Shown here: positions 3-53,919 of the stretch, in pieces
Numbering within the stretch: position 1 is the stretch's first letter
Layout: each line of letters starts with the position of its first letter
DNA from: Saccharomonospora amisosensis
Lineage (GTDB): Bacteria; Actinomycetota; Actinomycetes; Mycobacteriales; Pseudonocardiaceae
Direction of reading: 5' to 3'
DNA: 64,000 bases
Assembly: GCF_011761185.1 (NCBI RefSeq)
Contig: NZ_JAAOYM010000001.1
Coordinates: 4,650,001 to 4,714,000 of the forward strand
Made by a program: the position numbers and the translations under genes
The notes under the pieces: generated by a model
Told to the model about the DNA's origin: nothing
Database searches by the model: none
The model's input: the letters and a program-made list of their open reading frames with translations, nothing else

Positions 3-731
3 ACGCTGCAAGCCGCCGTTCGGTACGCCGTGGACAACGACGTTGTCGTCGTGGCAGCCGCGGGTAACACCGGCGAGAACTGCCCCCAGAACGACCAGCG
101 AGACCCTGCCAAGCCGAAGACGATCGTGACGCCACCCTGGTTCGCAGAAGACGTACTTTCGGTAGCAGCCATTGACGAAACCGGCAGCGTGGCTGACTTC
201 AGCGTCCACGGACCATGGGTGACAGTCGCCGCACCGGGAACAGGCATCACATCCCTTGACCCGGCCGCCGGCTCCGGCGGTCTGGCGAATCTCACCATCG
301 AGAATGGCGAGCCACAACAGATCCAGGGCACCAGCTTCGCGGCGCCATATGTGTCGGGAGTCGCCGCGTTGGTACGTGCGAAGTACCCGGATCTGACGGC
401 CCGTCAGGTGATGTACCGGATCGCGTATACCGCACAGCATCCCGCGGCGTCGGGCGGTCGGGACAACTTCGTCGGCTACGGGATCATCGACCCCATGGCG
501 GCTCTTACGGCGACGGTGCCTTCCGAAGAGGGCATCGAGCCCGCAAGGGCTGACCAGCTCCCTTCGGACCTGCCTCTGACCGACAACCGCGACTGGACCC
601 CGATGGTCGTGGCTCTGGCCGGCTCCGGCGGTGCCCTCATGGCGTTGATCATCACTCTGTTCGTGGTACACACCATCCGCCGCAACCGCACCGACGAAGC
701 CCACCCCACGGATAGCCGGAAGCGCGTTTAG
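3..731 (+). CDS. mycP: Type VII secretion mycosin (subtilisin-like serine protease), 3' part
   Basis: This is the C-terminal part of a membrane-anchored S8 protease of the mycosin family; the reading frame is open to the left edge, so the start lies outside the window. Visible are the oxyanion-hole region AAAGNTGENC and the catalytic-serine motif GTSFAAPYVSGVAALV. The catalytic Asp and His would be upstream. A hydrophobic segment (about 20 residues) followed by a basic tail near the C-terminus is the usual mycosin membrane anchor. Mycosins process or stabilise ESX secretion at the outer face of the membrane. The convergent neighbour is eccB and eccE follows, so this is a T7SS locus. The last two codons and the TAG stop lie in a dispersed repeat. 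Confidence 0.93.
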   Translation, partial: TLQAAVRYAVDNDVVVVAAAGNTGENCPQNDQRDPAKPKTIVTPPWFAEDVLSVAAIDETGSVADFSVHGPWVTVAAPGTGITSLDPAAGSGGLANLTIENGEPQQIQGTSFAAPYVSGVAALVRAKYPDLTARQVMYRIAYTAQHPAASGGRDNFVGYGIIDPMAALTATVPSEEGIEPARADQLPSDLPLTDNRDWTPMVVALAGSGGALMALIITLFVVHTIRRNRTDEAHPTDSRKRV

Positions 732-742
732 CGGGCTAACCG
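725..742 (+). repeat. Dispersed repeat copy overlapping the mycP stop
   Basis: Core CGTTTAGCGGGCTAACCG. The TAG inside the repeat (729-731) is the stop codon of the mycosin gene, so the repeat determines the last residues of that protein. This is the variant with TAA instead of AAA on the right side, also seen at 32039-32089. Confidence 0.85.
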
Positions 743-874
743 CGCTTCCGCGGCCGGCATTTCCACCCCGGGGCCCGTCGTCGTTTGCCGTACCCCTTCC
801 TCAGCAGCACGTCACAACGCAGCCGCAGACACTTCGGCGACCAAGCTTCAGCCTGCCTTCTTCGGAGGGGAGCA

Positions 875-892
875 CGTTTAGCGGGCAAACCG
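875..892 (+). repeat. Dispersed repeat copy
   Basis: Exact core CGTTTAGCGGGCAAACCG, preceded by GCA and followed by TGG. It is in inverted orientation to the copy at 956-973. Confidence 0.9.
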
Positions 893-955
893 TGGCAAGG
901 ATGGGCAAGAACCCGGATCCAAAGACCCATCGTCGGGAACGCGTCCTCGCAGGGA

Positions 956-973
956 CGGTTTGCCCGCTAAACG
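956..973 (-). repeat. Dispersed repeat copy
   Basis: Exact reverse complement of the core at 875-892, flanked by matching bases (TGC after the core). The two copies form an inverted pair about 63 bases apart downstream of both mycP and eccB. Confidence 0.9.
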
Positions 974-1109
974 TGCCACATCCCACCGACTCCCCCGGCC
1001 GCCGGCACTACGTGGCCTTGGTTTCCCCATACTGCGCATCGCGACGGGCTCACCCGCGACATCCGGACTTGCGACCTCGCGCGGTTATCCGGCTCAAGGG
1101 CAGGCGATT

Positions 1110-5112: not shown

Positions 5113-5161
5113 CGCGGTTTGCCCGCGAAACGTGCGCACCGCGTTTCGCGGGCAAGCCGCG
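5113..5161. repeat. Inverted pair of dispersed repeats (hairpin)
   Basis: Two copies of the repeat, cores 5115-5132 (minus) and 5142-5159 (plus, one mismatch), separated by 9 bases and extended by flanking bases, giving a stem of about 20 bp with one mismatch. It lies 13 bases after the stop of the ESX-linked gene, so it could end the eccE transcript, although there is no T-run after it. Confidence 0.85.
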
Positions 5162-5280: not shown

Positions 5281-6180
5281 GTGAACAGAACAACGAGGCC
5301 ACACGAGCTGACAAACGTCTTCCGCGGATCAGTTGCCCGTGCCGAAGGGTACGTAACAGAAGCCCAGCTACGCGGGCCGATGTTCCGACGGCTGTTTCAG
5401 GACGTCTACGCGCCGGCCCACCTGCCGGTGACGCACGAACTCCGCTGCCGCGGCGCGGCATTGATCGTTCCCAAAGAAGCGGTGCTGACAGGCCGGTCAG
5501 CCGCGACAGTCCTCGGGATCGACCTCGCCAAACCGCACGACCCAGTTGAATTCGTCGTTCCAGAGAAATCGCGTTTCGGTCCCATAAGCGGTATCCGCGT
5601 GCGCAGGACAGCTGTCAAACGAAAAGAATCCCGACCCTGGCAGGGCATCAGGATAGCCCGGCCCACTCGCATAGCTCTTGATCTACTGCTGCGACTCTCG
5701 CCGCGAACGCACGGATGGATAAGGCGGCTACGCATAGCTGTCCCAGACCTTGACGCATTCCTGCGCTCGAAGCTGGTTTCCACGAAGGCGCTAGAACGTA
5801 CTCTCCGAGATCGGCGTAATCGGGGTATCAGACTCGCACGAGAGGCTCTCCTCATGTCCGACGCACGAGCGGAATCACTTCCCGAGTCAGAACTGCGGGT
5901 CGTCCTCGAAACAGGAGGCCTCAACCCGACTCCGCAGTACCGGATTCTGAAGAATGGTACAGAAGTGGCCCGGCTCGATCTCGCGATCACCGAAACACGA
6001 ACGGCTATAGAGTACGACGGTTACTGGCATCGAGAACGAAGACAGACCCTCCTCGACCGAGCCCGACGTGGGCGACTCGCTGCCGAAGGATGGCGGTTCG
6101 TCATTGTCACCGCTGAAGACTTGACAGGCGATCCGAACAAGATACTGGAGGCCGTGCGCCGCGCCCAGCAATCGCCCTAG
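5281..6180 (+). CDS. AbiEi-like / DUF559-type protein with nuclease-like C-terminus
   Basis: 299 residues from a GTG at 5281. The frame is open further upstream only by reading through the repeat hairpin, so that extension is rejected. The N-terminal part (VARAEGYVTEAQLRG, then RRLFQDVYAP) resembles the winged-helix domain of AbiEi-type antitoxins. The C-terminal part (LDLAITETRTAIEYDGYWH, then RARRGRLAAEGWRFVIVTAEDL) resembles the Vsr-like DUF559 fold with an acidic D...E-x-D core. It uses codons rare in its neighbours (ATA, CTA, CTT, AGA), suggesting transfer or weak selection. No partner toxin is visible next to it. It converges on truA with a four-base overlap. Confidence 0.75.
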   Translation: MNRTTRPHELTNVFRGSVARAEGYVTEAQLRGPMFRRLFQDVYAPAHLPVTHELRCRGAALIVPKEAVLTGRSAATVLGIDLAKPHDPVEFVVPEKSRFGPISGIRVRRTAVKRKESRPWQGIRIARPTRIALDLLLRLSPRTHGWIRRLRIAVPDLDAFLRSKLVSTKALERTLRDRRNRGIRLAREALLMSDARAESLPESELRVVLETGGLNPTPQYRILKNGTEVARLDLAITETRTAIEYDGYWHRERRQTLLDRARRGRLAAEGWRFVIVTAEDLTGDPNKILEAVRRAQQSP

Positions 6181-7070
6181 GAACTGCTCGGGTGCGCGGA
6201 TCGAGTATTGCGGGTCTCATTGGCTCGCGCGGCGAGCTCACCTGCAGGCGGATAGTCAACGCCAATCAATGTCAGCCCGTGGGGCGGCGCTACCGCACTG
6301 TCGCGTAGGTGACTGCGAAGCGATTCGACAACTGATGCAGCACTGCGGCGCCCATCTCCCACCAGCAATAGTGCCCCCACAAGGCTGCGAACCATGGAGT
6401 GGCAGAACGCATCGGCCGTAACCGTCGCGTGTATCTCGTGTTCGCCCACTTGCCGCCAGCTCAGCCGTTGCAGATGTCTGATGGTCGTTGCGCCCTCACG
6501 CTGCTTGCAGAAGGCGGCGAAGTCGTGCAGCCCGATGAGAGGGCTTGCGGCTTCGTTCATGGCTTCCACAACAAGTGCCCGCGGCCACGCCAGGGTGTCC
6601 CGTCGACGCAGCGGGTCAACGCCCCATGGCGCATCCGACACCTTGTACAGATAGTGCCGTCTCATGGCGGAGAACCGGGCATCAAAACCGTCCGGCGCGA
6701 CATCGACCGCCAATACCCGTACATCTGGCGGAAGAACCCTGTTCCAACGGTGTCGTAAGCGGATCAGGTCAGGGACACCCTGCTCATCCACAGCCAAGCC
6801 CCGCAACGTTTTGCCCGCGAAACGCGATGCGTCGACATGGGCGACTTGGGCAGTGGCGTGGACGCCCGCATCTGTGCGGCCCGCGACCACCATGGGTCCG
6901 ACCATCGCCTCGCCCGGTGGTTGCTTCGCGAGCGCTTCCTCGAGCACTCCCTGCACTGTCCGTTGCCGTGGCTGCTTTGCCCACCCGGAAAAGTCGGTGC
7001 CGTCATAGGCCAAGTCGAGACGAATACGAACGAGCCCGCCATCCACTGTGGGAACGGCGGGCTCGTTCAT
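6177..7070 (-). CDS. truA: tRNA pseudouridine(38-40) synthase TruA
   Basis: 297 residues. TruA isomerises uridines 38-40 in the anticodon arm of many tRNAs. The catalytic Asp is in AGRTDAGVHATAQVAHVD (Asp67), and the N-terminal YDGTDFSGWAKQPRQRTVQG is characteristic. It is the last gene of the alpha-operon run, 14 bases after rplQ. A copy of the dispersed repeat lies inside the gene at 6807-6824 and encodes part of the stretch RFAGKTLRG just after the active-site region. The reading frame is intact, so the repeat is tolerated in a surface segment or has become part of the protein. Confidence 0.96.
   Translation of the reverse strand: MNEPAVPTVDGGLVRIRLDLAYDGTDFSGWAKQPRQRTVQGVLEEALAKQPPGEAMVGPMVVAGRTDAGVHATAQVAHVDASRFAGKTLRGLAVDEQGVPDLIRLRHRWNRVLPPDVRVLAVDVAPDGFDARFSAMRRHYLYKVSDAPWGVDPLRRRDTLAWPRALVVEAMNEAASPLIGLHDFAAFCKQREGATTIRHLQRLSWRQVGEHEIHATVTADAFCHSMVRSLVGALLLVGDGRRSAASVVESLRSHLRDSAVAPPHGLTLIGVDYPPAGELAARANETRNTRSAHPSSS
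6807..6824 (-). repeat. Dispersed repeat copy inside truA
   Basis: Core CGTTTCGCGGGCAAAACG read on the minus strand, the C-variant also found at 5142, 32977 and 53866. It is the only copy in the window inside a coding sequence rather than at or between gene ends. Confidence 0.85.
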
Positions 7071-10912: not shown

Positions 10913-11134
10913 TCACTTGTAGCGGTAGACGATGCGACCACGGGACAAGTCGTAGGGCGAAAGCTCTACGACAACCCTGTCCTCCGGCAGAATGCGGATG
11001 TAGTGCTGCCGCATCTTGCCACTGATGTGTGCAAGGACCTTGTGGCCGTTCTCCAACTCGACGCGAAACATCGCGTTGGGAAGCGGCTCGATTACGCGGC
11101 CTTCGACCTCGATGGCCCCGTCCTTCTTCGCCAT
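10913..11134 (-). CDS. infA: Translation initiation factor IF-1
   Basis: 73 residues from the ATG at 11134 ([20 protein letters not shown]). The whole length is the S1/OB fold of IF-1, which occupies the A site during initiation. Family-typical blocks are [20 protein letters not shown] and [19 protein letters not shown]. The frame stays open further upstream but nothing there resembles IF-1. A promoter-like sequence lies about 120 bases upstream, so infA probably begins the alpha-operon transcript. Confidence 0.97.
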
Positions 11135-11383: not shown

Positions 11384-11433
11384 CGTTTAGCGGGCAAACC
11401 GTGCTTGCCGGGCAACGTTTAGCGGGCAAACCG
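11384..11433 (+). repeat. Two direct copies of the dispersed repeat
   Basis: Cores 11384-11401 and 11416-11433, both CGTTTAGCGGGCAAACCG, in the same orientation 14 bases apart. They lie between the 3' end of map and the infA promoter. Apart from these and the promoter I see nothing in the 11135-11453 gap. Confidence 0.9.
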
Positions 11434-11453: not shown

Positions 11454-12275
11454 TCACTGTTCTGGTTCCGTCAACACCCACGGCCCCTCGTCGGTGACCG
11501 CTACCGTGTGCTCCCAGTGCGCGGCGCGAGATCCATCAGCGGTGACCACCGTCCAGCCGTCTTCCAGCTCGACGGTCTCTGGCGAGCCAGCCGTGAGCAT
11601 GGGCTCGATTGCCAACGCCATACCCACCTCGAGCAGCGGCCCTCGGCCTGGCCTGCCCACGTTGGGCAGGAATGGGTCCATGTGCATTGCCGAACCGATA
11701 CCGTGCCCGCCGTACTCGAGCACCATCCCGTACTCGACACCGTCCTCGGCGGCAGCTCGCCGGGCCGTCTGCTCGATGGCATAAGAGATGTCGGTGAGCC
11801 GCGCGCCCGGGTTGACCGCCCTCACCCCTGCTAGCATCGCGGCCCTGGTGGCCGCCGACAGCTTCTTGTCCGCCTCCGCAACGGCACCGATCTCGATGGT
11901 GACCGCCGAGTCACCGTGCCAACCGTCCAGGATGGCCCCGCAGTCCACCGACAGCAGGTCACCTTCCCGTAGGACACGCGCCGGCGAGGGGATGCCATGC
12001 ACGATCTGCTCGTTCACCGATGTGCAAATCGACGCCGGAAACCCGTGATAGCCCTTGAACGACGGCACCGCGTTGGCTTCCCGGATGGTCTGCTCGGCCA
12101 ACTCGTCGAGTTCTGCCGTGCTTACGCCCGGCGCAGCGGTTTGGACTACGTCACGCAAGGTTCGAGCGACAACCAGACCTGCCGCGCGCATGGCTTCCAG
12201 CTCGCCCCGGCTCTTCACCTCGATGGAGCGATCCCGACGGAACAACTGCCGCACGCGGCGTGGGAGGAGCTTCAC
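11454..12275 (-). CDS. map: Methionine aminopeptidase, type I
   Basis: 273 residues. Removes the initiator methionine from nascent proteins using a dinuclear metal centre. Metal-ligand regions are visible: [20 protein letters not shown] (two Asp), [16 protein letters not shown] (His), GMALAIEPM (Glu) and a final Glu in [13 protein letters not shown]. The substrate His is in HGIPSP. The ATG at 12275 overlaps the adk stop by four bases, which supports this start even though about 17 residues precede the usual type I N-terminus. It is the last gene of the secY-adk-map unit. Confidence 0.96.
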
Positions 12276-12826
12276 GAGCGGTTGCCGAGAGCTTCCAGCA
12301 CTCGAGCCGACACCTGGTCCACGTCGCCCACGCCGTCCACCGTCACAAGGATGCCAGAGTAATACTGCAACAGCGGAGCGGTCTCAGAACGGTACACCTG
12401 CTGCCTGCGTCGAATCACGTCCTCGGTGTCGTCCGTACGCCCCCTAGCCAGTAAGCGATCCACCAGCACGTCTTCAGGTACCTGCAGCTCGATCACGGCG
12501 TCCAATGCGGTATCCGACTCCGCGAGCATCTGGGCCAGCACATCAGCTTGCTTGGTGTTGCGTGGGAAGCCGTCGAGCAGGAAGCCCGACTTGGCGTCCG
12601 GTTCCGTGAGCCGCTCCCGCACCATCTCGTTGGTCACCGAATCCGGAACCAGTTCACCGGAGTCCAGGTAACGCTTCGCTTCTCTGCCAAGTGGTGTCTG
12701 CTCCCCTACGTGGGTCCTGAACAGCTCGCCCGTGGAGATATGCGGTACGCCGAGTCGCTCGGACAACGCCGCAGCCTGCGTACCCTTTCCTGCCCCAGGC
12801 GGACCGACTAGAACCACGCGCGTCAT
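12272..12826 (-). CDS. adk: Adenylate kinase
   Basis: 184 residues. Catalyses ATP + AMP to 2 ADP. The P-loop [10 protein letters not shown] is at residues 8-17, the AMP-binding part includes STGELFR and LDGFPRN, and the LID is the short form ([19 protein letters not shown]) without the zinc-binding insertion, as is common in actinobacteria. It overlaps both secY and map by four bases. Confidence 0.97.
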
Positions 12827-14356: not shown

Positions 14357-14416
14357 CGTTTAGCGGGCAAACCGTGGTGAGGGGACCCGATGGGAACGCG
14401 TTTAGCGGGCAAACCG
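14357..14416 (+). repeat. Two direct copies of the dispersed repeat
   Basis: Cores 14357-14374 and 14399-14416, both CGTTTAGCGGGCAAACCG, same orientation, 24 bases apart, between rplO and secY. Like the pair at 11384-11433, these copies are tandem rather than inverted. Confidence 0.9.
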
Positions 14417-14494: not shown

Positions 14495-14938
14495 TCAGAG
14501 CTTGGTGGCCGAGCCACCTGCCGCCTCGAGCTTCTCCTTCGCCGAGTTGGAGAAGGCATCGGCGGTCACATCCAGCTTGACGCCGTTCAGCTCACCGTTA
14601 CCGAGCACCTTCACCAGCTCGTTCTTGTGCACCAGGCCGCGGGCGACAAGTTCCTCCTTGCCGACCTTGCCACCGTCGGGGAACACCCGGGCCAGGTCGC
14701 CCACGTTCACCGCCTGGTACTCGGTGCGGAAGCGGTTCTTGAAGCCACGCAGCTTCGGCAATCGCATGTGAATGGGCATCTGCCCACCCTCGAAGCCGGC
14801 TGGCACATTCTTACGGGCCTTGGTGCCCTTCGTGCCGCGACCGGCGGTCTTGCCCTTCGAGCCCTCACCACGGCCGACCCGGATCTTCTCCCGGTTGGCG
14901 CCAGGAGCGGGCCTGAGGTGATGGATCTTGATGGCCAT
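14495..14938 (-). CDS. rplO: 50S ribosomal protein L15
   Basis: 147 residues. The N-terminal glycine-rich basic arm ([20 protein letters not shown]) and [20 protein letters not shown] are diagnostic. L15 helps late 50S assembly. Its start overlaps the rpmD stop by one base (TAATG). It is the last gene before the repeat-bearing gap that separates the spc proteins from secY. Confidence 0.97.
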
Positions 14939-32976: not shown

Positions 32977-33036
32977 CGTTTTGCCCGCGAAACGCGGTCC
33001 ATGGGCCGGGCCTGGGCACGTTTAGCGGGCAAAACG
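32977..33036. repeat. Inverted pair of dispersed repeats
   Basis: Cores 32977-32994 (minus, C-variant) and 33019-33036 (plus, A-variant), 24 bases apart. They lie between the peptidase gene start and the rpoC terminator. The two arms are different variants, so they were probably acquired or diverged independently. Confidence 0.85.
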
Positions 33037-33137: not shown

Positions 33138-37049
<3,912 letters not shown>

Positions 37050-42609: not shown

Positions 42610-43869
42610 TCAGCCCGGCAGCCCGGCCAGCTGCGACAGACTCGTGATGTCGAGGCCAGGACCACCCGCGATGCCCGGCAAGCCGCGCAGCGAGGCCAGC
42701 TCCTCCTCGTCGCGGTGGGAGTTGGCTTCCACCTGCTGCTCGCTCGGCTTCTGCGGAACGCCGTGGTAGGGCGCGTTCTGCGACCCGCGCACCGCGATCG
42801 GGCTGCCTGGTGGTTCGGCGCAGTACGCGTCCTGTTTGGGCTCCCTCGGCGCGGTTTCGCTGCCGGGTCGGTACTGCTCCGGCGGCAGGTAGCCCTTGGT
42901 GCAGGTCGGCGGGTTGAACAGGTTCAGCGCCAAGCCGAGGTGCGCGGTGCCGTCGCCGGGGGTGACCGTGTACGCCCCTGCCGCGACGACCGGGTAGGTC
43001 ACGAACGCCTGCTCCAACCCGTCGAGCCGAGTGACCGCCAGGTTCGAGGTGGTCAACAGGTTGGCCACAAGCGTGGAAAGGCCAGGGCCCGACTCGGCCA
43101 GTACCTGGCTGACCTGCCCAGACACCTTCGGCGTTATGTCGATCAACTCGCGCAGCTCGCCGTCGGAGTCGCGCAGTGTCGCCGACAGGTCCTTGAGGTC
43201 CCTGCTGAACGAGCGCATCGAGGATGCCATCTCGTTCTGCGTCGTCAACACCGTCGTGCCCGCGTCGAGCAGCTGCACCGTCTGCGGCAGGTGCTGCTGC
43301 GCGACCGTGGTGAACTCGCGCGTGGTGTCCATCAGCACCTGCAGATCATCGCCGGTGCCACGGAAGGCGTTGTAGGACTCGTCGACCACTGTTCGCAGCG
43401 CGTCCGTGGGTACGGAGGCGGCCAGACTGTCGAGGTCGGCGATGACCTGCTCGGTGGGCACCGGCGTGTCGGCACGCTCCACCGATATCACCGAACCGTC
43501 CCGCAGGAACGGTCCACGGTCGGTCACCGGGCGTAGGTCGACGTACTGCTCCCCGACAGCCGACCGGTTCGCCACCACGGCATGCAGGTCACTGGGCACC
43601 TTCGGCGCGTCGCCCTCGATGTTGAGTTCGGCCTGCAGCCCGGTTTCGGTGAGACTCAGCCTGCCGACCTTGCCGATGTTGTAGCCGCGGTAGGTCACCT
43701 CGGCGCCGGTGAAGATGCCTCCCGACTCGGCGAGCTGCAACCGCACCGTGTAGCCGCCGGTGCCGAAGGTCTTCTCGACGTCGGTGAACCGCACCAGCGC
43801 GTACCCGATCGCCAGCACCGAGATGACCAGGAAGGCCACCAGCTGGATTTTCGTCCTGCGCAACAGCAT
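42610..43869 (-). CDS. mceF: Mce family protein, MceF position
   Basis: 419 residues. An N-terminal membrane helix (KIQLVAFLVISVLAIGYALV) is followed by the MlaD/Mce domain (GIFTGAEVTYRGYNIGKVGR) and a long helical region that would form part of the lipid-conducting tube. The C-terminal about 100 residues are Pro-rich. Assigned to position F because it is the sixth Mce gene in order. It overlaps mceE by one base. Confidence 0.93.
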   Translation of the reverse strand: MLLRRTKIQLVAFLVISVLAIGYALVRFTDVEKTFGTGGYTVRLQLAESGGIFTGAEVTYRGYNIGKVGRLSLTETGLQAELNIEGDAPKVPSDLHAVVANRSAVGEQYVDLRPVTDRGPFLRDGSVISVERADTPVPTEQVIADLDSLAASVPTDALRTVVDESYNAFRGTGDDLQVLMDTTREFTTVAQQHLPQTVQLLDAGTTVLTTQNEMASSMRSFSRDLKDLSATLRDSDGELRELIDITPKVSGQVSQVLAESGPGLSTLVANLLTTSNLAVTRLDGLEQAFVTYPVVAAGAYTVTPGDGTAHLGLALNLFNPPTCTKGYLPPEQYRPGSETAPREPKQDAYCAEPPGSPIAVRGSQNAPYHGVPQKPSEQQVEANSHRDEEELASLRGLPGIAGGPGLDITSLSQLAGLPG

Positions 43870-45071
43870 CAGCCGGCACCTCCGGAAAAGAGGTCGAAGA
43901 GCCCGCCGAGGCCCGTCGACTCGTCCTGGCGCTGGTCGTCGCCGGTGTTGTTGCCTCCCTCGCCGGGCAGCGGCAGCGGCGGCGGACCGTCACCGGAGCC
44001 GTCCTGCCCGCTGGTGAGACCGCCGAGGATCGGCACGTCCTGCAGCGGGTTCTGCCTGCTGCGGCTGAGGTTGGCGAGGATTTCCTGCAGGTTGAGGTCG
44101 ATGTCGGCGTAGAGGTTGAAGTAATCGCCCTTGGCGCCCTCCACCGCCGCGTCGCTGAACGGGTAGGTGAGCATCACCTCCAGCGCCTTCGGCAGGTCGG
44201 ACCCGGCCTCGCCGAGCTTGCGCAGGGTCGGCAGCAACGCCTCCAGGTTGGCGACCAGATCCTCCTGGCTCGCGTTGACCGTATCGACCGCGACCACGGA
44301 CAGTTCGTCCAACGCCCGCAACATCGTGACCAGCTGGCCGCGCTGCCGCTCCAGCACTTCGAGCCCCGGACCGAGGTCGTCGATCGCTCCCACGATCTGG
44401 TCGCGCTGGCCGTTCAGCGTCGAGGAAAGCCGGTTCAACCCGTCCAGCGCGCGAGTGATGTCGGCCGACTGCTCGTCGAGTGCACTGACCAGCTCGTCAG
44501 TGTTGCGCAGCAGGGCCTTGACGTCGGCCTCGTTGCCATCCAGGGCGTTGTTCAGCTCCTTTGTGATGGTGTTCAACTGCTCGACACCGCCGCCATTGAG
44601 CAGCATGGACAGCGCGCCGAGCACCTCCTCCACCTCGACGCTGCGGTTGGTGCGCGTCACCGGGATCACGTCGCCGTCACTGAGTTCGGCCTGTGCCGCG
44701 GCCTCGGGTGGCGCGGTCAGCTCGACGTACTTCTCACCGAGCAGGCTCGACTGGCGCAGGTTCGCGATCGCGTTGGCCGGCAGCTCGACGTCACCGTTGA
44801 CCAGCACCGTGACCTCGGCGGTCCAGCCGTCCGCTGCGAGGCCGACGTTCTCGACCCTGCCTACCGGTACCTCGTTGACACGCACCCCCGCCTGCGGCAC
44901 CAGGTCCAGCACGTCGCGGAACTGCACCTTGACCGTGTAGGGATCGTTCCCCACGTCGGCGCCGCCCGGCAACGGAACGTCGTAGATGCCGGAGAAACCG
45001 GGGACGGAGCAGCCCCCCGCCAACACGCCCGCGCACACGACGGCTGCGACCTTCACACGGCTGCGGTTCAC
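43869..45071 (-). CDS. mceE: Mce family lipoprotein, MceE position
   Basis: 400 residues from a GTG at 45071 that overlaps the mceD stop (GTGA). The signal peptide ends in a lipobox (VLAGGC), so this is the lipid-anchored Mce subunit that is typically fifth in the operon (LprK-like). The Mce domain includes LVPQAGVRVNEVPVGRVENV. The C-terminal region has long helices and a Gly/Pro-rich tail. A longer upstream frame is rejected because it lacks a signal peptide at its start. Confidence 0.93.
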   Translation of the reverse strand: MNRSRVKVAAVVCAGVLAGGCSVPGFSGIYDVPLPGGADVGNDPYTVKVQFRDVLDLVPQAGVRVNEVPVGRVENVGLAADGWTAEVTVLVNGDVELPANAIANLRQSSLLGEKYVELTAPPEAAAQAELSDGDVIPVTRTNRSVEVEEVLGALSMLLNGGGVEQLNTITKELNNALDGNEADVKALLRNTDELVSALDEQSADITRALDGLNRLSSTLNGQRDQIVGAIDDLGPGLEVLERQRGQLVTMLRALDELSVVAVDTVNASQEDLVANLEALLPTLRKLGEAGSDLPKALEVMLTYPFSDAAVEGAKGDYFNLYADIDLNLQEILANLSRSRQNPLQDVPILGGLTSGQDGSGDGPPPLPLPGEGGNNTGDDQRQDESTGLGGLFDLFSGGAG

Positions 45072-46252
45072 TGGCCACCCCCTGAGGCGTTTAGCTGGCC
45101 GAGGACCGGCAGCGGCAGGTCGGGCAGCTCGCCGTTGTTCAGGGCATTGACTGACTGGGCCAGCGAGGGCAGCGGCAGGGCTCCGTCGAGCACCGGCGCC
45201 AGTTGCCCGCACAGCTCGCCGAGCGCGTCGAGTTCTTCCGGTGTCTGCTTGAGGAAGTTGCAGATCATCACGACGGGAGGTTGGGTCAGTTCGTTGAGGT
45301 TCGCCCTCGCGTCCAGCGTTCCTGAGGACGCGTTGTAGGTGTTGGCCAGGTTGCTCAGTGCCAGCGGTGCGATGTCGAGCGTCTCGGCGAGTGCGGCACG
45401 CTGGTCGACGAGCACCCTGGTGATCCCCGCCAGCTTGTCCACATTGGATCGAACCCGGCCGTGGTTGTCCTCGATGAAGCCCCGCACTGCCTGCAGTGTG
45501 GTGCCCAGCTCCCGCACGGTCGCCGCCAGGTTCTCCCGCTCCCCCGACAAGAACGAGCTGACGTCGGCCAGCTGTGATTCGAACCGGCGGACCTCCTCGT
45601 CGCTCTCGGCGAGCGTGGTTGACAACTTGGCGAGGTTGTCAACGGTCGCGAAAAGGTCGCCGGAGTTGCCAGAGAGGCTGCGCGCGGCCTGGCCCAGCTT
45701 GGTGATCGTGTCGTTGAGCTGGGTGCCGTTGCCCTCCATGTTGTCCGACAGTGTGTTGAGCAGGTCGGAGAGCGACCCGTCGGCGTTGGCTCCGTTGGGC
45801 CCCAGCGACTCCGAAACGCGGCTGAGGCTGTCGCTGAGTTCGTCGATCTCCAGTGGCACCGCCGTGCGATCCATCGGGATGACGGCCCCGTCCTCCAGTT
45901 GCGGACCGCCGGTGTGGGCGGGGGCGAGCTGCACGTAGCGGTCGGAGACCAGCGAGGGTGCCACGATCGCGGCCTGCGCGTCGGCGGGGACGGCGACGTC
46001 CCGGTCGTAGGCCAGCTCCACCCTGACCCGGTCACCGAGCGGCTGGATACCGGTTACCTCTCCCATCTCCACACCGAGAACGCGCACGCTGTTGCCCACG
46101 TAGAGGCCGATCGCGGCGGGAAAGTAGGCGACGGCATGCTTGCGTCCGGCGTCCTTGAGCGTCCACCACAGCGCGCCCGCGACGACGAGCCCGAGCACGC
46201 ACGCGATGACGATTCCGCGCGTGAGCTGCCTTCCGAAGCGGGTGTCGGTCAT
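45068..46252 (-). CDS. mceD: Mce family protein, MceD position
   Basis: 394 residues. Membrane helix near the N-terminus (GIVIACVLGLVVAGALWWTL), then the Mce domain (IGLYVGNSVRVLGVEMGEVT). Long heptad-like helices follow. Overlaps mceC and mceE by four bases each. Confidence 0.93.
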   Translation of the reverse strand: MTDTRFGRQLTRGIVIACVLGLVVAGALWWTLKDAGRKHAVAYFPAAIGLYVGNSVRVLGVEMGEVTGIQPLGDRVRVELAYDRDVAVPADAQAAIVAPSLVSDRYVQLAPAHTGGPQLEDGAVIPMDRTAVPLEIDELSDSLSRVSESLGPNGANADGSLSDLLNTLSDNMEGNGTQLNDTITKLGQAARSLSGNSGDLFATVDNLAKLSTTLAESDEEVRRFESQLADVSSFLSGERENLAATVRELGTTLQAVRGFIEDNHGRVRSNVDKLAGITRVLVDQRAALAETLDIAPLALSNLANTYNASSGTLDARANLNELTQPPVVMICNFLKQTPEELDALGELCGQLAPVLDGALPLPSLAQSVNALNNGELPDLPLPVLGQLNASGGGQ

Positions 46253-47235
46253 CGTGCGTTACACCCCTCTTCGTTCAGTGGCCCCAGCGAGGGCAGCAGC
46301 ATTCCGCAGATGTAGTTGTCGAACCAGCGGCCGCTGCTGATGGTGTTGTTGAACACCCGGATGAACGGCGCGAAGCGCTTGATGCCCTCGGAAAGCGACT
46401 CCTGGTTGCGCTGCAGCATGTTGGTGAGCCGGTCGAGTTTGGCCATAACGGGTTCAAGTTGCTCGTTGTTGTCGTCGACAAGCCCACGCAGTTCGGCGGC
46501 GAGTTGCCTGCTGCCCGTCAACAGCGCGCTGATGGCCTGTTCCCGGGCGGAAAGCTCCTCGAGCAGTTCGTTGCCGTCCTCGAGCAGCTTGCGCAGTTCC
46601 GCGTCACGGTCGGCGAGCGTCTGGCTCACCTGCCGGGTGTTGGCGAGCAGATTCGCCAACTGCCGGTCGCGGGTGGCGATGGTGTCGGAGAGTCGCGAGA
46701 GCCCGTTCAGCGCACCGCGCACGTCGTCCGGGGTGTCGGCGAAGGTCTGCGACAGCACGTCGAAGCTTTGCGAGAGCTGGTCGGTGTCGATCTCGTCGAC
46801 GGTCTCCGAAAGCCCGCGGAACGCCTCGAGCACGTCGTACGGCGCGGTCGTGCGCTCCCTCGGGATGGTGTCGCTGGGATCCAGCGGCCGGTCACCGACC
46901 GGGTCGAGTGCGAGGTACTTCTGCCCGAGCAGCGTCTTGATCTTGATGGTCGCCGCGGTTCGGTCGCCGAGCCAGGCATCGGAGACCTTGAACGAGACGA
47001 GCACCCGGTCGCCGTCGAGCTCGACATCGGTCACCTTGCCGACCTTGACGCCGGCGATACGCACCTCGTCGTCGGTCTGCAGGCCCGCGGCCTCGCTGAA
47101 GTGCGCACGGTAGGTGGTGCCTCCGCCGATGATCGGCAGGTCGTCTGAGTTGAGAGCGGCCAGCGTGCCGAGGATCATCAGCACGATTCCCACCACCGCG
47201 ATGGGAATGGGGTTGCGCTTGGAGAAGCTGGTCAT
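46249..47235 (-). CDS. mceC: Mce family protein, MceC position
   Basis: 328 residues from the ATG at 47235, which overlaps the mceB stop (ATGA). Membrane helix (IPIAVVGIVLMILGTLAALN) and Mce domain (AAGLQTDDEVRIAGVKVGKV). The helical needle region is shorter than in MceA, and the C-terminus has two cysteines (YICG and GCNAR). Confidence 0.93.
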   Translation of the reverse strand: MTSFSKRNPIPIAVVGIVLMILGTLAALNSDDLPIIGGGTTYRAHFSEAAGLQTDDEVRIAGVKVGKVTDVELDGDRVLVSFKVSDAWLGDRTAATIKIKTLLGQKYLALDPVGDRPLDPSDTIPRERTTAPYDVLEAFRGLSETVDEIDTDQLSQSFDVLSQTFADTPDDVRGALNGLSRLSDTIATRDRQLANLLANTRQVSQTLADRDAELRKLLEDGNELLEELSAREQAISALLTGSRQLAAELRGLVDDNNEQLEPVMAKLDRLTNMLQRNQESLSEGIKRFAPFIRVFNNTISSGRWFDNYICGMLLPSLGPLNEEGCNAR

Positions 47236-48263
47236 GACAGGCACCGCTCCCTGCTCGCAGGCATGACCGGGAGGTGGACCGGTTCGTTCACAACGCCGGG
47301 CACTCCCACGTTGCCGTTGGCCTCGCAGAGGTAGAAGTTGAACCAGGAGCCGTAGTCGGCGGTCGCGCTCATCCTGGTGACCTTCTCCGGCAGGAACTGG
47401 ATGAAGTGTTCGACGAGCGGTTCGGAGTCGTTGAGGTTGCCCACCAACGTGCCCAGCGCCTGGATGTCCTGCTTCAGCGGCTGCCTCGCTTCCCGCAACA
47501 GCCCGGCCGTGGTGTCACTCAGCTCACCGAGCGATTCGATGGCATCGCCGATGGGTTCCCGGTCGCTCGCCAACCCGGAGACGAACTGCTGCAGCCTGGC
47601 CACGAGGTCCGACAGTTGCGGCGTGTGCTCGTTCAGGGTCTGCAACACGGAGTTCAGGTTGTCGATGACCTGACCGATGACCTGGTCCTTCTCGGCGATC
47701 GTCGTGGTGAGCGATGCCGTGTGAGCGAGCAGGTTCTCAACCGTGCCGCCCTCGCCCTGCAACACCTGGATGATCTCGTAGGACAGCTTGTTCACGTCCT
47801 CCGGTGACAGTGCGCGGAACAGCGGTTTGAAGCCGTTGAACAACTCGGTCAGGTCAAGGGCCGGGCGGGTGCGTTCGATGGGGATGTTGCCGCCCGGCTC
47901 GAGGTAGCCGCCAGGCTCGCCGGTGCCTCGCTCCAGTGCGACGTAACGCTGGCCGACGAGGTTGCGGAACTTGATCGTGGCGGTGACTCCCGCTGGCAGC
48001 CTGCGGTTCTGATCGACCTCGAACTCCACCTCGGCCTGCCTGCGGTCGACGATCCGGACGTCGGCGACCTGGCCGACCCGGACACCGGCGATGCGCACGT
48101 CGTCACCCTCGATCAGCATCGTCGCGTCCGTGAAGCGCGCGGTGTAGGTCTTGGTGTCCGACAGGTTGAGGTTGGCGATGCTCAGCCCCAGCATGGCGGT
48201 GAACACGATGGTGACCACGACGAAAATGCTCAGCTTCGTCAAAGGTGCGGCGATTCCCCTCAT
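47232..48263 (-). CDS. mceB: Mce family protein, MceB position
   Basis: 343 residues from the ATG at 48263, overlapping the mceA stop by four bases. A membrane helix (LSIFVVVTIVFTAMLGLSIA) precedes the Mce domain (MLIEGDDVRIAGVRVGQVAD). C-terminal WFNFYLCEANGNV is shared by this subfamily. Part of the hetero-hexameric substrate tube. Confidence 0.93.
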   Translation of the reverse strand: MRGIAAPLTKLSIFVVVTIVFTAMLGLSIANLNLSDTKTYTARFTDATMLIEGDDVRIAGVRVGQVADVRIVDRRQAEVEFEVDQNRRLPAGVTATIKFRNLVGQRYVALERGTGEPGGYLEPGGNIPIERTRPALDLTELFNGFKPLFRALSPEDVNKLSYEIIQVLQGEGGTVENLLAHTASLTTTIAEKDQVIGQVIDNLNSVLQTLNEHTPQLSDLVARLQQFVSGLASDREPIGDAIESLGELSDTTAGLLREARQPLKQDIQALGTLVGNLNDSEPLVEHFIQFLPEKVTRMSATADYGSWFNFYLCEANGNVGVPGVVNEPVHLPVMPASRERCLS

Positions 48264-49603
48264 CGCACGGTCACCTCCGCTCCCCGGTACAGCGGGCCCA
48301 CCAGAAGCGCACCCCAACCGGGCACATCGGACGGACTCAGCCCGACAGCGGGCCCGATGAGGTGAGAGAGCAGCGCGTGCTCAGCCACACTGTTGACGGG
48401 ATTGGAGCTGGCGGTTGTGCCGCCGTAGCCACCCGCGTTGGCGTTGTTGTTGGCCGGGTTGAGCCCCTCGCTCTGGGTACGAGCCGCGGGCGGTGTGGTG
48501 CTGCCGTCCTGTAGCGGTCCGTCCGGCGGATGTTGTGGGAAGGGTTGCGGGAATTCCTTCATGTCGTAGCAGCGTGGGCCCCGCTTGTCGTTGTACTCGG
48601 GCTCGTCCTGACCCGGTTTGTAGGGACCTCGGTTGGTCGTGATCTCGATTGTGGCGTGCAGACCTGGCTTGTTGGTGCCCTTGCCGAACGCCTTGTCGAT
48701 CCGGGGAACGAGATCACTCATCTGCCCGAGGAAGCACGGGTACTCCGGCGCGTATTTGGCGAGCAACTCGGCTGTCGGCCGCGCCGTCTCGCCAAGGCTG
48801 ATCAGGTTGTCCGCGTTGGCGGAGAGGAAACTCTCCAGATCCACCGACGCGGTGCCGAGGGTGGTGTAGAGGTTGCTCAGCTTGTGTTGCTGCTCGACGA
48901 CGGTGCGGCTGGTCACCGAGAAGTTCTCCAGCACTCGCACCAGATCTGGCGCGGCGTCGGAAAGATTGTCGGAGAACCGCGCGAGCTGACGCAGGTTCTC
49001 CTGCAGCCGGGGCAGGTGCGGGTTCAGCTCGCCGACGTAGTCGCCGAGTTGTGCCAGCGTCTCGCCCAACGGTTTGCCCCTGCCCTCCAACGCGGTGGAG
49101 ATGGCGGCCAGCGTGCTCGACAGCTTCTGCGGTTGCACCGCTCGCAGCACCGGCATCAGGCTTTCCAACGCCTGGTCGAGCTCGATGGCGCTGCTGGTGC
49201 GGTCCTGCGGGATCACATCGCCGTCGCGAAGAGCCTGCGGAGAGGGTTCCTCCGGCAACTGCAGCGACACGAAGCGCTCGCCGAACAGCGTCTTCGGCAG
49301 AAACCGGGCCGTGACATTGGTCGGTACCAGGTGGGCATGTTGCGGGTCGAGTCGCAAGGTGAGCACCGCACCCGTTTGGGTCGGCGTGATATCGGCGACG
49401 CTGCCAACGATGAGCCCGCGAACCTTGACGTCGGAGTTGACCGCCAGTTGGTTGCCGATCGTGTCCGCCTCGAGTGTCACCGTGACGAACTTCGAGAAGC
49501 TCTTGTTGTACAAGGCGATGCTGAGCGCGACCCCGCCGACGAGCACGGCGACCAGCAGCAGCCCGAGCAGCCTCCGCCGAAGGGTGACCAGTGCGGCGCT
49601 CAT
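48260..49603 (-). CDS. mceA: Mce family protein, MceA position
   Basis: 447 residues. Membrane helix near residues 12-31 (LLGLLLVAVLVGGVALSIAL), Mce domain (LAVNSDVKVRGLIVGSVADI) and long helical part. The C-terminal 120 residues are Pro/Asn/Gly-rich. It overlaps the upstream permease gene by four bases and mceB by four. Confidence 0.93.
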   Translation of the reverse strand: MSAALVTLRRRLLGLLLVAVLVGGVALSIALYNKSFSKFVTVTLEADTIGNQLAVNSDVKVRGLIVGSVADITPTQTGAVLTLRLDPQHAHLVPTNVTARFLPKTLFGERFVSLQLPEEPSPQALRDGDVIPQDRTSSAIELDQALESLMPVLRAVQPQKLSSTLAAISTALEGRGKPLGETLAQLGDYVGELNPHLPRLQENLRQLARFSDNLSDAAPDLVRVLENFSVTSRTVVEQQHKLSNLYTTLGTASVDLESFLSANADNLISLGETARPTAELLAKYAPEYPCFLGQMSDLVPRIDKAFGKGTNKPGLHATIEITTNRGPYKPGQDEPEYNDKRGPRCYDMKEFPQPFPQHPPDGPLQDGSTTPPAARTQSEGLNPANNNANAGGYGGTTASSNPVNSVAEHALLSHLIGPAVGLSPSDVPGWGALLVGPLYRGAEVTVR

Positions 49604-50439
49604 CCTGCGATCCTCACGGTGGTGTCGGTTCCCCAGATCGCGAAACCGATGAAGAAGTTGACGATCGCGACCGTGACGATGGAAAGCCGCACGGCACGGC
49701 CGACGGCGACACCCACCCCTGCGGGCCCACCGCTGGCGCGATAACCGTAGTAGCAGTGCGTCAAGATGATCAACACGCTGAAGATCAGGACCTTGACGAA
49801 TGAGTAGAAGACGTCCTCAGGCGGCAAGAACATATCGAAGTAGTGGTCGTAGGTGCCTGCCGACTGGTCGTACAGGTAGACGACCACCGTTCGGGAGGCG
49901 AGGTAGGAGCTCAGCAGACCGACGACGTACAGCGGAATCACCGCGACGAAGCCGGCGATGATGCGGGTTGTGACAAGGTAGGGCAGGCTAGGCACACCCA
50001 TGACCTCCAGCGCGTCGATCTCCTCCGAGATCCGCATCGCGCCGAGCTGTGCGGTGAAGCCCGCGCCAACGGTGGCCGAAAGCGCGAGCCCAGCGACCAG
50101 CGGCGCGATCTCGCGAGTGTTGAAGAAAGACGTCAAGAACCCCGTGAACGCCGACGTTCCGATCGAGTTCAACGCGGAGAAACCCTGCAGGCCCACCAGC
50201 ACACCGGTGAACAGGGTCAGTCCGACCATCACGCCGACGGTGCCGCCGATGACTGCCAGCGAGCCGGACCCGAAACTCACCTCGGCGAGCAGGCGCAGCA
50301 CTTCCTTGGTGTAGCGCCGGATCGTCCTCGGCGCCCACGCGACGGCGCGCAGGTAGAACGACATCTGATCGCCGAGGTCGTCGAGGACCTCCAGTGGCCG
50401 GTTGGCGATCTTCTTCGCGTGCTGTGACAGGGAAGGCAT
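49600..50439 (-). CDS. yrbEB: YrbE/MlaE-type permease B of the Mce transporter
   Basis: 279 residues with five or six membrane helices. The MlaE signature region is RISEEIDALEVMGVPSLPYL. Together with the next gene it forms the permease pair of the lipid importer, driven by MceG. It starts four bases after the stop of the other permease and overlaps mceA by four. Confidence 0.94.
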   Translation of the reverse strand: MPSLSQHAKKIANRPLEVLDDLGDQMSFYLRAVAWAPRTIRRYTKEVLRLLAEVSFGSGSLAVIGGTVGVMVGLTLFTGVLVGLQGFSALNSIGTSAFTGFLTSFFNTREIAPLVAGLALSATVGAGFTAQLGAMRISEEIDALEVMGVPSLPYLVTTRIIAGFVAVIPLYVVGLLSSYLASRTVVVYLYDQSAGTYDHYFDMFLPPEDVFYSFVKVLIFSVLIILTHCYYGYRASGGPAGVGVAVGRAVRLSIVTVAIVNFFIGFAIWGTDTTVRIAG

Positions 50440-50443
50440 CGTG

Positions 50444-51238
50444 CTAGTCCAACTTCGCAGGAACGATCTGGAGGTAGATCAGCGTGATCACGAAGTTGAC
50501 CACGAAGAGCAGCAGGAACGTGATGACGACCGACTGGTTCACCGCGTCGCCGACCCCCTTTGGTCCCGGCGGAGGATTCAGCCCGCGGTAGGCCGCGACC
50601 ACCGCGGCGATGAAGCCGAAGATGAGGGCTTTGATCTCGCCGACCCACAGGTCGGGCAGCTGGGCCAGCGCTGAGAAGCTCGCAAGGTAGGCGCCGGGTG
50701 TGCCGTCCTGCAACACCACGTTGAAGAAGTAGCCACCGAGCACGCCGATCACGCTGACCATGCCATTTAGCAGCATGGCCACGAGCATCGCGGCGAGCAC
50801 CCTGGGTACCACGAGCCGTTGCACCGCGGAGACGCCGAGCACCTCCATGGCGTCGATCTCCTCGCGGATCGTGCGCGCTCCGATGTCGGCACAGATGGCG
50901 GAGCCACCCGCGCCCGCGACGAGCAACGCGGTCACCAGCGGGCTCGCCTGCTGCACGGTGGCAAGCACGCTCCCCGCACCGGTGTAGGACTGCGCGCCGA
51001 GCTGCTTGGCCAGCGAACCGAACTGCAACGAGATGACCGCGCCGAACGGGATGGCGACGAGTGCCGTCGGCAAGATCGTGACGCTGGCTATGAACCAGGA
51101 CTGCTGGATGAACTCCCGCAACTGGAAAGGCCGCTGGAAGATCCCCCGTGCGACGTCGAGGCCGAGTGCGAACAGCTTGCCGGTCTCTCGCAACATGCCA
51201 GCACCGGGGACCCTGGCCGCCGAGGCCGGTGAGGTCAT
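50444..51238 (-). CDS. yrbEA: YrbE/MlaE-type permease A of the Mce transporter
   Basis: 264 residues, membrane protein. The coupling-helix region IREEIDAMEVLGVSAVQRLV matches MlaE permeases and probably contacts MceG. The N-terminus carries an amphipathic helix (ARGIFQRPFQLREFIQQSWF). Overlaps the mceG stop by four bases, so the ATPase and permease are translated together. Confidence 0.94.
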   Translation of the reverse strand: MTSPASAARVPGAGMLRETGKLFALGLDVARGIFQRPFQLREFIQQSWFIASVTILPTALVAIPFGAVISLQFGSLAKQLGAQSYTGAGSVLATVQQASPLVTALLVAGAGGSAICADIGARTIREEIDAMEVLGVSAVQRLVVPRVLAAMLVAMLLNGMVSVIGVLGGYFFNVVLQDGTPGAYLASFSALAQLPDLWVGEIKALIFGFIAAVVAAYRGLNPPPGPKGVGDAVNQSVVITFLLLFVVNFVITLIYLQIVPAKLD

Positions 51239-52380: not shown

Positions 52381-52543
52381 CGCACCTCCCGGAGCTCATT
52401 CGCGGCGGTATGCCCCGAAGCCCTGCGTCAACCACATGCAACGAGTTGAGGGCGCACAGGTTACTCGCCAGTTCAAAAAATGGTGGACACCGCATCGAGC
52501 AGCGTCGACCGTGGAGCAAGGTAACGCACGTGGGTGACACACG

Positions 52544-52585: not shown

Positions 52586-52611
52586 TCGCGGTCGCGCTGG
52601 TGGCGCTCAGC

Positions 52612-53004
52612 TCACTTGACGGAGACGCTCGCGCCCGCCGCCTCGAGCTTCTCCTTGGCGGCGTCCGCCGCCTCCTTGTCGACCTTCTCCAGCAGCGGCT
52701 TCGGCGCGCCCTCGACCATCTCCTTGGCCTCCTTCAGACCGAGGCCGGAGACGATCTCGCGAACGACCTTGATGACCTGGATCTTCTTGTCGCCCGCACC
52801 CTCGAGGATGACGTCGAACTCGTCCTGCTCCTCCTCGGCGGGTGCCGCGCCCTCACCGGCGCCACCGGGGGCGGCGACAACGGCCGCAGGAGCGGCGGCG
52901 GTGACGTCGAAGGTCTCCTCGAACTTCTTGACGAATTCGGACAGTTCGAGCAGGGTCAGCTCCTTGAACGCGTCAAGCAGCTCGTCGGTGCTCAGCTTCG
53001 CCAT
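52612..53004 (-). CDS. rplL: 50S ribosomal protein L7/L12
   Basis: 130 residues. N-terminal dimerisation helix, Ala/Gly-rich hinge ([20 protein letters not shown]) and C-terminal globular domain ([20 protein letters not shown]). Multiple copies form the ribosomal stalk that recruits EF-G and EF-Tu. 53 bases after rplJ. Confidence 0.98.
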
Positions 53005-53057
53005 GGTGGCGTTCCTTCCTTGATCGGGCCCAGATCGGGGATTGGTGTGTCTGAATG

Positions 53058-53603
53058 TCAGCTCTCGGCAGCTTCGCCTTCGCCACCCTCGGACTTGCGC
53101 TTGTCCTCCAGCGCGGCAGCCAGGCGCGCGACCTGGGACGCCGGAGCCTGGAACAGCGCAGCGGCCTGGGACAGCTTCGCCTTCATCGCGCCAGCGGCCT
53201 TGGCGAGCAGCACCTCACGGCTTTCCAGATCGGCGAGTCGCTCGATCTCGGCGACCGTGAGCGGCCTGCCGTCCATGTAGCCGCCCTTGATGACGAGGGC
53301 GTTGTGGTCCTTCGCGAAGTTCTTGAGTGCCTTCGCGGCCTCGACCGGCTCACCCTCCACGAAGGCGATGGCGGTGGGACCGATGAAGAGCTCGTCGAGA
53401 CCCTCGATGCCAGCGTCCTCCGCGGCACGCTTGACGAGGGTGTTCTTCGCGACCCGGTACTTGGCGGTGTTGCCGAGAGCGCGGCGCAGCTCGCTGAGCT
53501 GTGACACGGAGAGGCCGGTGTACTCGGTGACAACCGTTGCCGAGCTGTTGCGGAACCGGTCCGCGATCTCGGCGACGGCCGCCACCTTGTCGGGCTTCGC
53601 CAT
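53058..53603 (-). CDS. rplJ: 50S ribosomal protein L10
   Basis: 181 residues from the ATG at 53603, preceded by GAGAGGAGG. L10 anchors L7/L12 dimers to the ribosome. Blocks: [20 protein letters not shown] and [20 protein letters not shown]. Frames extending further upstream read through the leader and are rejected. Confidence 0.97.
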
Positions 53604-53815
53604 GGTCGCCTCCTCTCTTGGCGTTGGCGACCGCCGGCGGTTCGGACCCCCAATACGACGAAACGCCCCTGCGCAGCAGGCGCGGGGCGTCGTGAGAACG
53701 CGGTCTGGGCCGCGTACGTGCCTCGTCCTCCTGCGCGGGCCGCCCGTCGTCTGCGGGACCTTCGTTCCTCGCGCGTCGGCGCGAGAAAGACCAGCGGTCT
53801 TCGGTAGAACCGCAA
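53604..53815 (-). promoter_or_regulatory. Candidate L10 leader upstream of rplJ
   Basis: About 210 untranslated bases before rplJ contain strong local pairing, for example ACGACGCCCC with GGGGCG near 53650-53690. Many bacteria regulate rplJ-rplL by binding of the L10-L12 complex to a leader in this position. I infer it from location and structure, not from a confirmed motif match. TATGCT near 53815-53825 on the minus strand is a possible -10. Confidence 0.5.
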
Positions 53816-53861
53816 ACCAGCATACGTGACCACCAACCCCCACCCGCTCCGGCCCCCACAA

Positions 53862-53919
53862 ACCGCGTTTCGCGGGCAAACCGCGGTCGGCTCACCGCGG
53901 TTTGCCCGCGAAACGCGGT
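53862..53919. repeat. Perfect 26-bp inverted pair of dispersed repeats
   Basis: Arms 53862-53887 and 53894-53919 are exact reverse complements with a six-base spacer (cores 53866-53883 and 53898-53915, C-variant). It lies between the divergent rplJ leader and a plus-strand gene, so it is not acting as a simple 3' terminator here. Confidence 0.95.

Follow-up and report, generated by a model that had tools for sequence, protein, structure and literature searches.

What does a short near-palindrome do that recurs through one part of a bacterial chromosome? The question is raised by a 64,000-nucleotide stretch of the Saccharomonospora amisosensis genome (contig NZ_JAAOYM010000001.1; C1:4650001-4714000), hereafter called the window, in which an earlier note had described 16 copies of an 18-base repeat marking junctions between gene blocks. 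All 16 copies were recovered at exactly the positions given there; with up to three mismatches the window held no others, and dinucleotide shuffles gave a mean of 0.04 matches and a largest count of one. The observation is right and larger than first seen. The window covers the middle and right part of a cluster of sites restricted to a chromosomal domain around rpoBC and the ribosomal-protein operons, and on balance we lean, from sequence comparison, towards the sites being the binding sites of a putative dimeric protein that marks or structures this domain, like MatP on matS. The 18-base core stands, but the unit is longer, a near-palindrome of 20-30 bp around TTTnG-4-CnAAA, and window-type sites contain GTTTAGC-GG-GCTAAAC. 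Below, G000 is the window's genome (5,534,940 bases), other G numbers are relatives, and g numbers are genera, g16 being Amycolatopsis-like.

The whole genome was searched for the 18-mer with up to two mismatches. G000 contains 36 copies, and 36 of 36 lie in C1:4576122-4725427, which is 149 kb or 2.7% of the genome; a reversed-pattern control gave 0 matches. A repeat family was thereby confirmed, although a regional and not a genome-wide one. Restriction to this region had been named in the earlier note as grounds for refusing the family; it was found, and proved to be the main property of the element. The same holds for G001 (28 of 28 copies within 145 kb) and G016 (18 of 18 within 267 kb). 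Across genomes the domain measures about 75-310 kb, with a cluster every 2-4 kb (median) and gaps of up to 31 kb. It contains rpoC, rpoB, tuf, fusA, rplL, rplJ and groEL (NCBIfam), secY, map, infA, rplO, glmM, rpsI and guaB3, and an ESX cluster whose genes include eccB and those for a subtilase and an FtsK/SpoIIIE ATPase. In the complete 5.97-Mb genome of G001, dnaA lies at 1.2 kb and all 28 copies fall between 0.668 and 0.812 Mb; in G015, dnaA lies at 0.7 kb and the copies begin at 0.61 Mb. Because the cluster starts 0.61-0.67 Mb from dnaA in these two genomes, the domain is on one arm, at neither origin nor terminus, and both an origin or terminus domain and a parS-like site around oriC were rejected on this position.

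Of 297 genomes of the family, identified by named neighbours as Pseudonocardiaceae, 30 carry the degenerate 18-mer. The core TTTnGCGGGCnAAA, which also covers the dialects described below, occurred at least four times in 35 of the 297, belonging to nine genera, and 0-2 times in the other 262. In a class-wide set of 394 genomes, three of them in the family, just G000 exceeded two cores; the 391 outside the family never did. Named loci around rpoA were also scanned for sites (48 of 80). Between 8 and 17 sites were found in the loci of Saccharomonospora sp. NB11 and Amycolatopsis oliviviridis, coloradensis and WAC 01376, and two weak ones in S. iraqiensis; the scanned rpoA loci of A. arida, A. 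rubida, A. bullii, Prauserella endophytica, P. salsuginis, Saccharothrix, Lentzea, Pseudonocardia, Nocardia and Mycobacterium had none.

The letters of the site vary by genome, with half-sites CGTTTAG, CCTTTAG and GCTTTTG. In a word count made with no prior motif, the element was the top over-represented 12-mer in the domain of G000, G001, G015, G198 and G246, and it also ranked first in the domain of G019 and G078. G229 was negative by the first pattern, and its top domain repeat is GCTTTTGC-GG-GCAAAAGC. CCTTTAG/CCTTTTG forms are used in G074 and CGTTTCG forms in G105. The g16 palindrome extends up to 30 bp (GGATCGCGTTTAG-CGGG-CTAAACGCGATCC), with interchangeable half-sites and a centre of CGGG, CCCC or GGGG; G246 has 94 g16-type sites, against four for a control pattern. 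Another dialect is found in G009, which is negative for the stricter pattern and has 125 copies of TTTnGCGGGCnAAA, the most of any genome sampled. The compared stretches of G254, G209, G069, G050 and G022 held no core copy, and word searches found none in all five. A dyad search in G209 returned nothing of this architecture, a search that also misses the window's own imperfect palindrome.

Sites hold their positions even as their letters change. G000 was compared with one other genome at a time, and each intergenic interval of 80 bp or more was scored for a site in both, in G000 only, in the other only or in neither. The counts, in that order, were 16/0/0/34 for G001, 14/0/0/27 for G015, 13/1/4/19 for G198, 12/0/3/23 for G246, 8/4/1/27 for G078, 6/3/0/15 for G105, 7/2/2/9 for G074, 5/4/3/11 for G019 and, in its different dialect, 4/0/0/15 for G229. 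Fisher tests gave p of 0.012 or less for all but G019. Comparison of orthologous junctions, proposed in the earlier note, thus showed the same intervals holding sites across genera; most of the genomes compared retain sites in the intervals beside infA, secY, rplJ and glmM/rpsI.

Conservation of position extends into coding DNA. The site at 6807-6824 on the minus strand lies within truA (6177-7070, minus strand, PF01416), and the same codons bear a site in 14 of 32 sequences compared, each in its own genome's form (CGTTTCGCGGGCAAAACG in G000, CCTTTAGCGGGCAAAACG in G198, CCTTTTGCGGGCAAAAGC in G229). In 11 of these 14 a TTA or TTT codon stands there; the G+C content of the regions concerned is 66-70%. 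Where the site is absent, the loop is either of equal length but built of other codons (G069, G050, L199, L211) or of another length. Shorter TruA loops occur in G019, G022 and the relatives from Saccharothrix, Lentzea and Pseudonocardia, and the loop of Mycobacterium is of its own kind. The loop may be an ancient insertion; the site itself, judged from these alignments, is gained and lost by substitution. A gene for an FGGY kinase reads TACTTTTCGCCCGCGAAACG in G000, G001 and G015, TACTTTTCGCCCGCTAAAGG in G074, and TACTTC... in eight other aligned genomes. Substitutions of the TTC-to-TTT kind create the site (three mismatches) in 4 of the 12, with no insertion or deletion, and five of the eight sequences without it come from genomes that bear sites elsewhere. 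By these comparisons, sites arise by point change, in coding DNA as well.

Sites are also present in DNA that has newly arrived in the domain. In G229, 110 kb (C1:2008486-2118703, L125-L131) lie between rpoC and gene 108, which by its size and place we take to be rpsL. Nothing in the other regions compared matches about 100 kb of this gap, from 2017309, at more than 50% identity. This foreign block carries a large cluster of polyketide synthase (PKS) and non-ribosomal peptide synthetase genes and genes presumably for sugar catabolism, with AP_endonuc_2 and UbiA domains among them. The gap holds 37 sites in the G229 dialect (10, 11, 12 and 4 at 0, 1, 2 and 3 mismatches), against 0.7 in Markov sequences; 35 of them lie from 2017309 onward and the last two at the far junction. 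With genes called by our own caller, 29 of the 33 sites with up to two mismatches fall in called frames, and reading frames 0, 1 and 2 are used 15, 4 and 10 times. The block may have come with its sites from a donor of the same dialect, and the in-frame sites suggest selection for a site every few kilobases in the domain. In-frame sites in new DNA are hard to reconcile with operators, terminators or an inserting element. The place between rpoC and an rpsL-type gene is itself unusual for an insertion.

In G000, 32 of 37 sites are intergenic, where about 5 would be expected from length. Every intergenic class is enriched when the sites are tested as an operator set, the convergent one most (11 observed against 0.8 expected, compared with 16 against 3.1 for codirectional and 5 against 1.1 for divergent spaces). 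The marking of gene-block junctions proposed earlier therefore holds as an intergenic preference; the sites mark a whole domain and not particular junctions. The distance from intergenic sites to the nearest 3' end has a median of 56-126 bp. Within arrays, spacings in g1, g15 and g41 are 32, 42-43, 53 and 74 bp, with a 10.5-bp phasing of R=0.78 (n=51), and those in g16 are 36-37, 46, 56-57, 66-67 and 78 bp, offset by about 4 bp (R=0.62, n=57); phasing is weaker in G019 (R=0.54, n=29) and G229 (R=0.49, n=13). Such helically phased spacing is as expected of proteins on one face, or on alternating faces, of the helix. The asymmetric centre CGGG occurred in 187 sites in one orientation and 172 in the other over 10 genomes, so there is no strand bias, and a polar motif of the KOPS or Chi type, biased along the replichore, was rejected. 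A hairpin followed by a T-run lies between the rpoC stop codon and its sites, on rpoC's own strand. Another with a T-run lies between rplO and its sites in G015; the window's rplO hairpin is without one. No T-run stands beside the copies in the window, and a single copy of the window dialect makes a poor RNA hairpin (z=-0.49). A terminator or RNA hairpin was rejected for the window dialect on the separate hairpin by rpoC and this poor fold. Together with the phasing and lack of strand bias, these results agree with the earlier view that the element is not a simple terminator and point to a probably protein-bound one.

The window's copies illustrate these arrangements. The first, CGTTTAGCGGGCTAACCG at 725-742 (+), lies over the stop codon of the ESX-cluster subtilase gene (gene end 731), and a consensus copy at 875-892 (+), in the convergent space before eccB, has its inverted partner, also of consensus form, 81 bp away at 956-973 (-). 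The copy at 5115-5132 (-), of the CGTTTCGC form and 15 bp past the end of a called gene, forms an inverted pair with 5142-5159 (+). Direct pairs were found, as noted earlier, at 11384-11401 and 11416-11433 (both +, 32 bp), between map (11454-12275, -) and infA (10913-11134, -), and at 14357-14374 and 14399-14416 (both +, 42 bp), between rplO (14495-14938, -) and secY (12823-14130, -). In a convergent space, 32039-32056 (+) pairs inversely with 32072-32089 (-), which adjoins the end of an M15 peptidase gene (32113-32850, -). Downstream of rpoC (33138-37049, -), past its hairpin with T-run, 32977-32994 (-) and 33019-33036 (+) form an inverted pair 42 bp apart, and in the divergent space upstream of rplJ (53058-53603, -) 53866-53883 (+) is paired inversely with 53898-53915 (-). 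Among the four close inverted pairs described earlier, those at 32039-32089 and 53862-53919 are indeed perfect, with arms of 22 and 26 bp; the other two are not, 5113-5161 pairing 20 of 24 arm positions and 32977-33036 just 19 of 30 (12 contiguous). All copies but the one in truA are intergenic or at a gene end, as the note had stated.

Candidate binders and mobility enzymes were sought. Of 24 site-bearing genomes, 23 lack the Y1 (RAYT-type) transposase domain PF01797, G041 being the exception; the domain occurs in 3 of 20 genomes without sites. None of 46 genomes, of which 26 bear sites, has the KorB domain PF08535, and ParB_N (PF02195) gave exactly one match each in G000, G001, G015, G016, G019 and the weakly positive G021; KorB, Noc or a second ParB as binder were ruled out by these searches. 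The genes called in the domain of G000 were compared with those of nine site-bearing and five site-less genomes, five of these fourteen over 80 kb. As far as compared, the same core genes occur with and without sites, and the predicted binder is therefore probably encoded outside the domain. Three genes near groEL identified by place and sequence and missing there in G254 (sigD, an orphan response regulator and a TPR-like gene) were dropped, since the site-less G209 has them; an aminotransferase missing in G209 was dismissed as an enzyme. Outlier sites far from the domain, examined as possible marks of the binder's own promoter, were mostly in convergent spaces, with some in codirectional or divergent ones, and beside enzymes and transporters; a few adjoin regulator genes, different ones from site to site.

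A second class of palindrome, CATTTAG-AGGA-CTAAATG, is spread chromosome-wide in some relatives. Counted with up to three mismatches, which admits a few CGGG forms, it has 42-390 copies in nine g16 genomes (G016 390, G220 303, G122 189, G246 176, G302 168, G139 152, G070 73, G100 63, G172 42). There are 15 copies in G310, 8 in G015, 7 in G074, 4 in G041 and 3 in G198. The remaining site-bearing genomes, G000, G229, G269 and G275 among them, have 0-1, and none of 20 tested genomes without the CGGG class has more than one. Of eight copies with neighbours examined, seven are in convergent spaces (examples are L195:5508-5568 and L183:18607-18784). In the domain of G246, AGGA copies overlap the first 40 kb of the CGGG cluster and end at 8.644 Mb; from there to 8.96 Mb (316 kb) there are 0, against about 6 expected at the genome mean density. 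It is conceivable, though we hold it only tentatively, that the chromosome is partitioned by address-like site classes read by paralogous binders, CGGG filling the rpoBC-ribosomal domain and AGGA the rest, and that arriving DNA is overwritten with the local dialect by selection, even in PKS frames.

Under the reading we favour, a sequence-specific double-stranded DNA-binding protein, probably dimeric, would recognize near-palindromes with a half-site of about xxTTTnG and a 4-bp G+C-rich centre, often binding two or three sites per space on a fixed helical phase. Along the roughly 75-310 kb that surround rpoBC, groEL and the ribosomal-protein operons, the bound sites would mark or fold the domain. 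Sites would be gained and kept by point mutation under selection, reading frames included, and their letters would co-diverge with the specificity of the binder, giving the genome dialects. The sites could alternatively be operators of one transcription factor controlling neighbouring translation, RNA-polymerase, ESX and chaperone genes; since these genes happen to be neighbours, restriction would then follow from gene content and not from domain function. Pairs phased like cooperative operators, the retained sites at infA, secY, rplJ and glmM/rpsI, and the sites in divergent spaces (5 of 37) suit such a regulon. We nevertheless think it unlikely, as convergent spaces are the most enriched, sites occur in truA, in the kinase gene and deep in the PKS frames of G229, none is near the S10/str operons, and unrelated genes newly placed in the domain bear them.

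That a mobile or copied palindromic element of the REP (repetitive extragenic palindrome) or RPE kind spread locally and was homogenised by gene conversion would account for sites uniform within a genome and different between genomes. Its inverted pairs resemble BIMEs (mosaic elements built of REPs), the AGGA class is dispersed over whole chromosomes, and relatives from Saccharothrix, Lentzea and Pseudonocardia have a shorter TruA loop than the site-holding one here. The REP-like nature suggested in the earlier note did not survive the tests: the Y1 transposase is nearly absent from site-bearing genomes, the same intervals carry sites across genera, coding sites arise without insertion or deletion relative to relatives of the same length, and the G000 copies are in one domain only. 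REP or BIME, dispersed and extragenic, was likewise rejected for the copies in truA and other genes, and we consider a mobile origin improbable. Transcription terminators or roadblock insulators at operon ends are less probable still. They would agree with the short distance to 3' ends, with the convergent spaces that hold most CGGG outliers and seven of the eight AGGA copies with neighbours examined, and with the 13-bp hairpin of the g16 dialect; against them stand the lack of a T-run beside the copies, the separate T-run hairpins before the rpoC sites and, in G015, the rplO sites, the poor fold of a single window-dialect copy and the sites inside coding frames, and terminators would need neither one common sequence nor confinement to a domain. 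Least probable, to the point of being very doubtful, is a DNA-transfer watermark marking domain DNA, like the DNA uptake sequences DUS and USS or the repeats recognised by plasmid TraB. Dialects, inverted pairs near gene ends and coding copies are indeed features of DUS, but the sites are not polar and number tens in one domain, whereas DUS are enriched genome-wide with hundreds to thousands of copies; DUS/USS was rejected on this regional enrichment.

Several results weigh against binding sites of a domain-marking protein. No binder was found in the domain gene comparison, the outlier sites or the RAYT, KorB and ParB_N searches. Intergenic sites in codirectional spaces are shifted towards the 3' side, at a mean relative position of 0.28-0.40, as would be the case if they were tied to transcript ends; one site of the g16 or G229 dialect folds as a perfect RNA hairpin (13 bp in g16), and the window's perfect inverted pairs may form long hairpins too. 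Orthologous pairs enter the phasing p values repeatedly. In g16, 16 of 25 sampled genomes have the core at least four times and 9 are without a cluster (0-2 cores), so the system is dispensable or has been replaced. G019 departs in three respects: its confinement is weaker, the rpoC contig holding 25 of its 56 copies, a second contig 16 and the remainder of the genome 15; the overlap of its intervals with those of G000 does not reach significance (p=0.11); and the short loop of its truA lacks the site. A few outlier copies lie far from the cluster in some g16 genomes (G100, G122, G302, G246), the S10-str part (window 14.9-28.9 kb) has no copy, so coverage of the domain is uneven, and G229 stands apart from the other genomes in that our caller assigns 39 of its 59 sites to coding sequence.

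Other features of these regions were observed. The palindrome TCCACTGTGGA is repeated in ribosomal regions of genomes with and without the main element (G209, G254, G246). TCCACTGTGG has 7 copies in G209 and 8 in G254, and GTCCAC-N-GTGGAC dyads number 5 in G209 and 6 in G246. Further genome-specific repeats near ribosomal genes (G069 L163-L166, L199, L223, L204) are GGGCACCTTTACTGC (4), AGGTGGCCTTCACTGCAGT (5), CAGTTTTAGTC (4) and GAACGCTCAACTCGCGCGA (5). At window 42610-51238, an MCE/MlaE-type lipid-transport operon, with two of its genes named by NCBIfam, lies between rplL and rpoB. At G000 C1:4634907-4636181 (L034:14907-16181), a 424-aa gene, which we take to resemble an IS110-type transposase, has no match in the relatives' regions compared.

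Few bacterial site-specific systems that mark a chromosomal domain are known. Literature searches found no description of the motif and no such system for the ribosomal and RNA-polymerase gene region. Sites that are kept in place as their sequence drifts into dialects, and that are missing in sister species, offer a ready comparative system. They predict a single co-diverging binder and allow tests of whether the cell needs the domain folded, insulated or tethered, and the in-frame sites in the new gene cluster of G229 suggest that where a gene sits on the chromosome can influence its coding sequence. Short palindromes, inverted pairs and a preference for intergenic DNA and 3' ends are shared with REP and BIME elements; the sites differ in the missing RAYT (23 of 24), the single domain, the conserved positions and the in-frame copies made by substitution. 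DUS of the Neisseriaceae, which have species dialects, pairs at gene ends and coding copies, are genome-wide and far more numerous, and the sites here are regional. The operators of plasmid RK2 resemble window-type sites in their letters, the KorB operator OB containing TTTAGC-G-GCTAAA and the KorA operator OA GTTTAGCTAAAC (PMC11790492), yet the spacer differs and the dialect GCTTTTGC loses the likeness. Noc, with about 70 NBS sites, and SlmA, with 24-52 SBS sites (PMC4726725), likewise use tens of palindromic sites, unevenly placed over the chromosome, for one binder, here a predicted one. NBS and SBS are thinned just near the terminus (Ter) whereas our sites are confined to 2-4% of the chromosome, and the single ParB_N protein in each of five site-bearing genomes tested leaves no Noc-type paralogue there. 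Closest in kind is matS of the Escherichia coli Ter macrodomain, bound by MatP, a 13-bp site with 23 copies in 800 kb (PMC3330122). By analogy, repeated sites of one binder, predicted in our case, would occupy one chromosomal domain only. The domain described here is rpoBC-ribosomal and lies on one arm, away from the terminus in G001, and its sites are roughly 8-10 times denser, set in phased pairs and divided into dialects.

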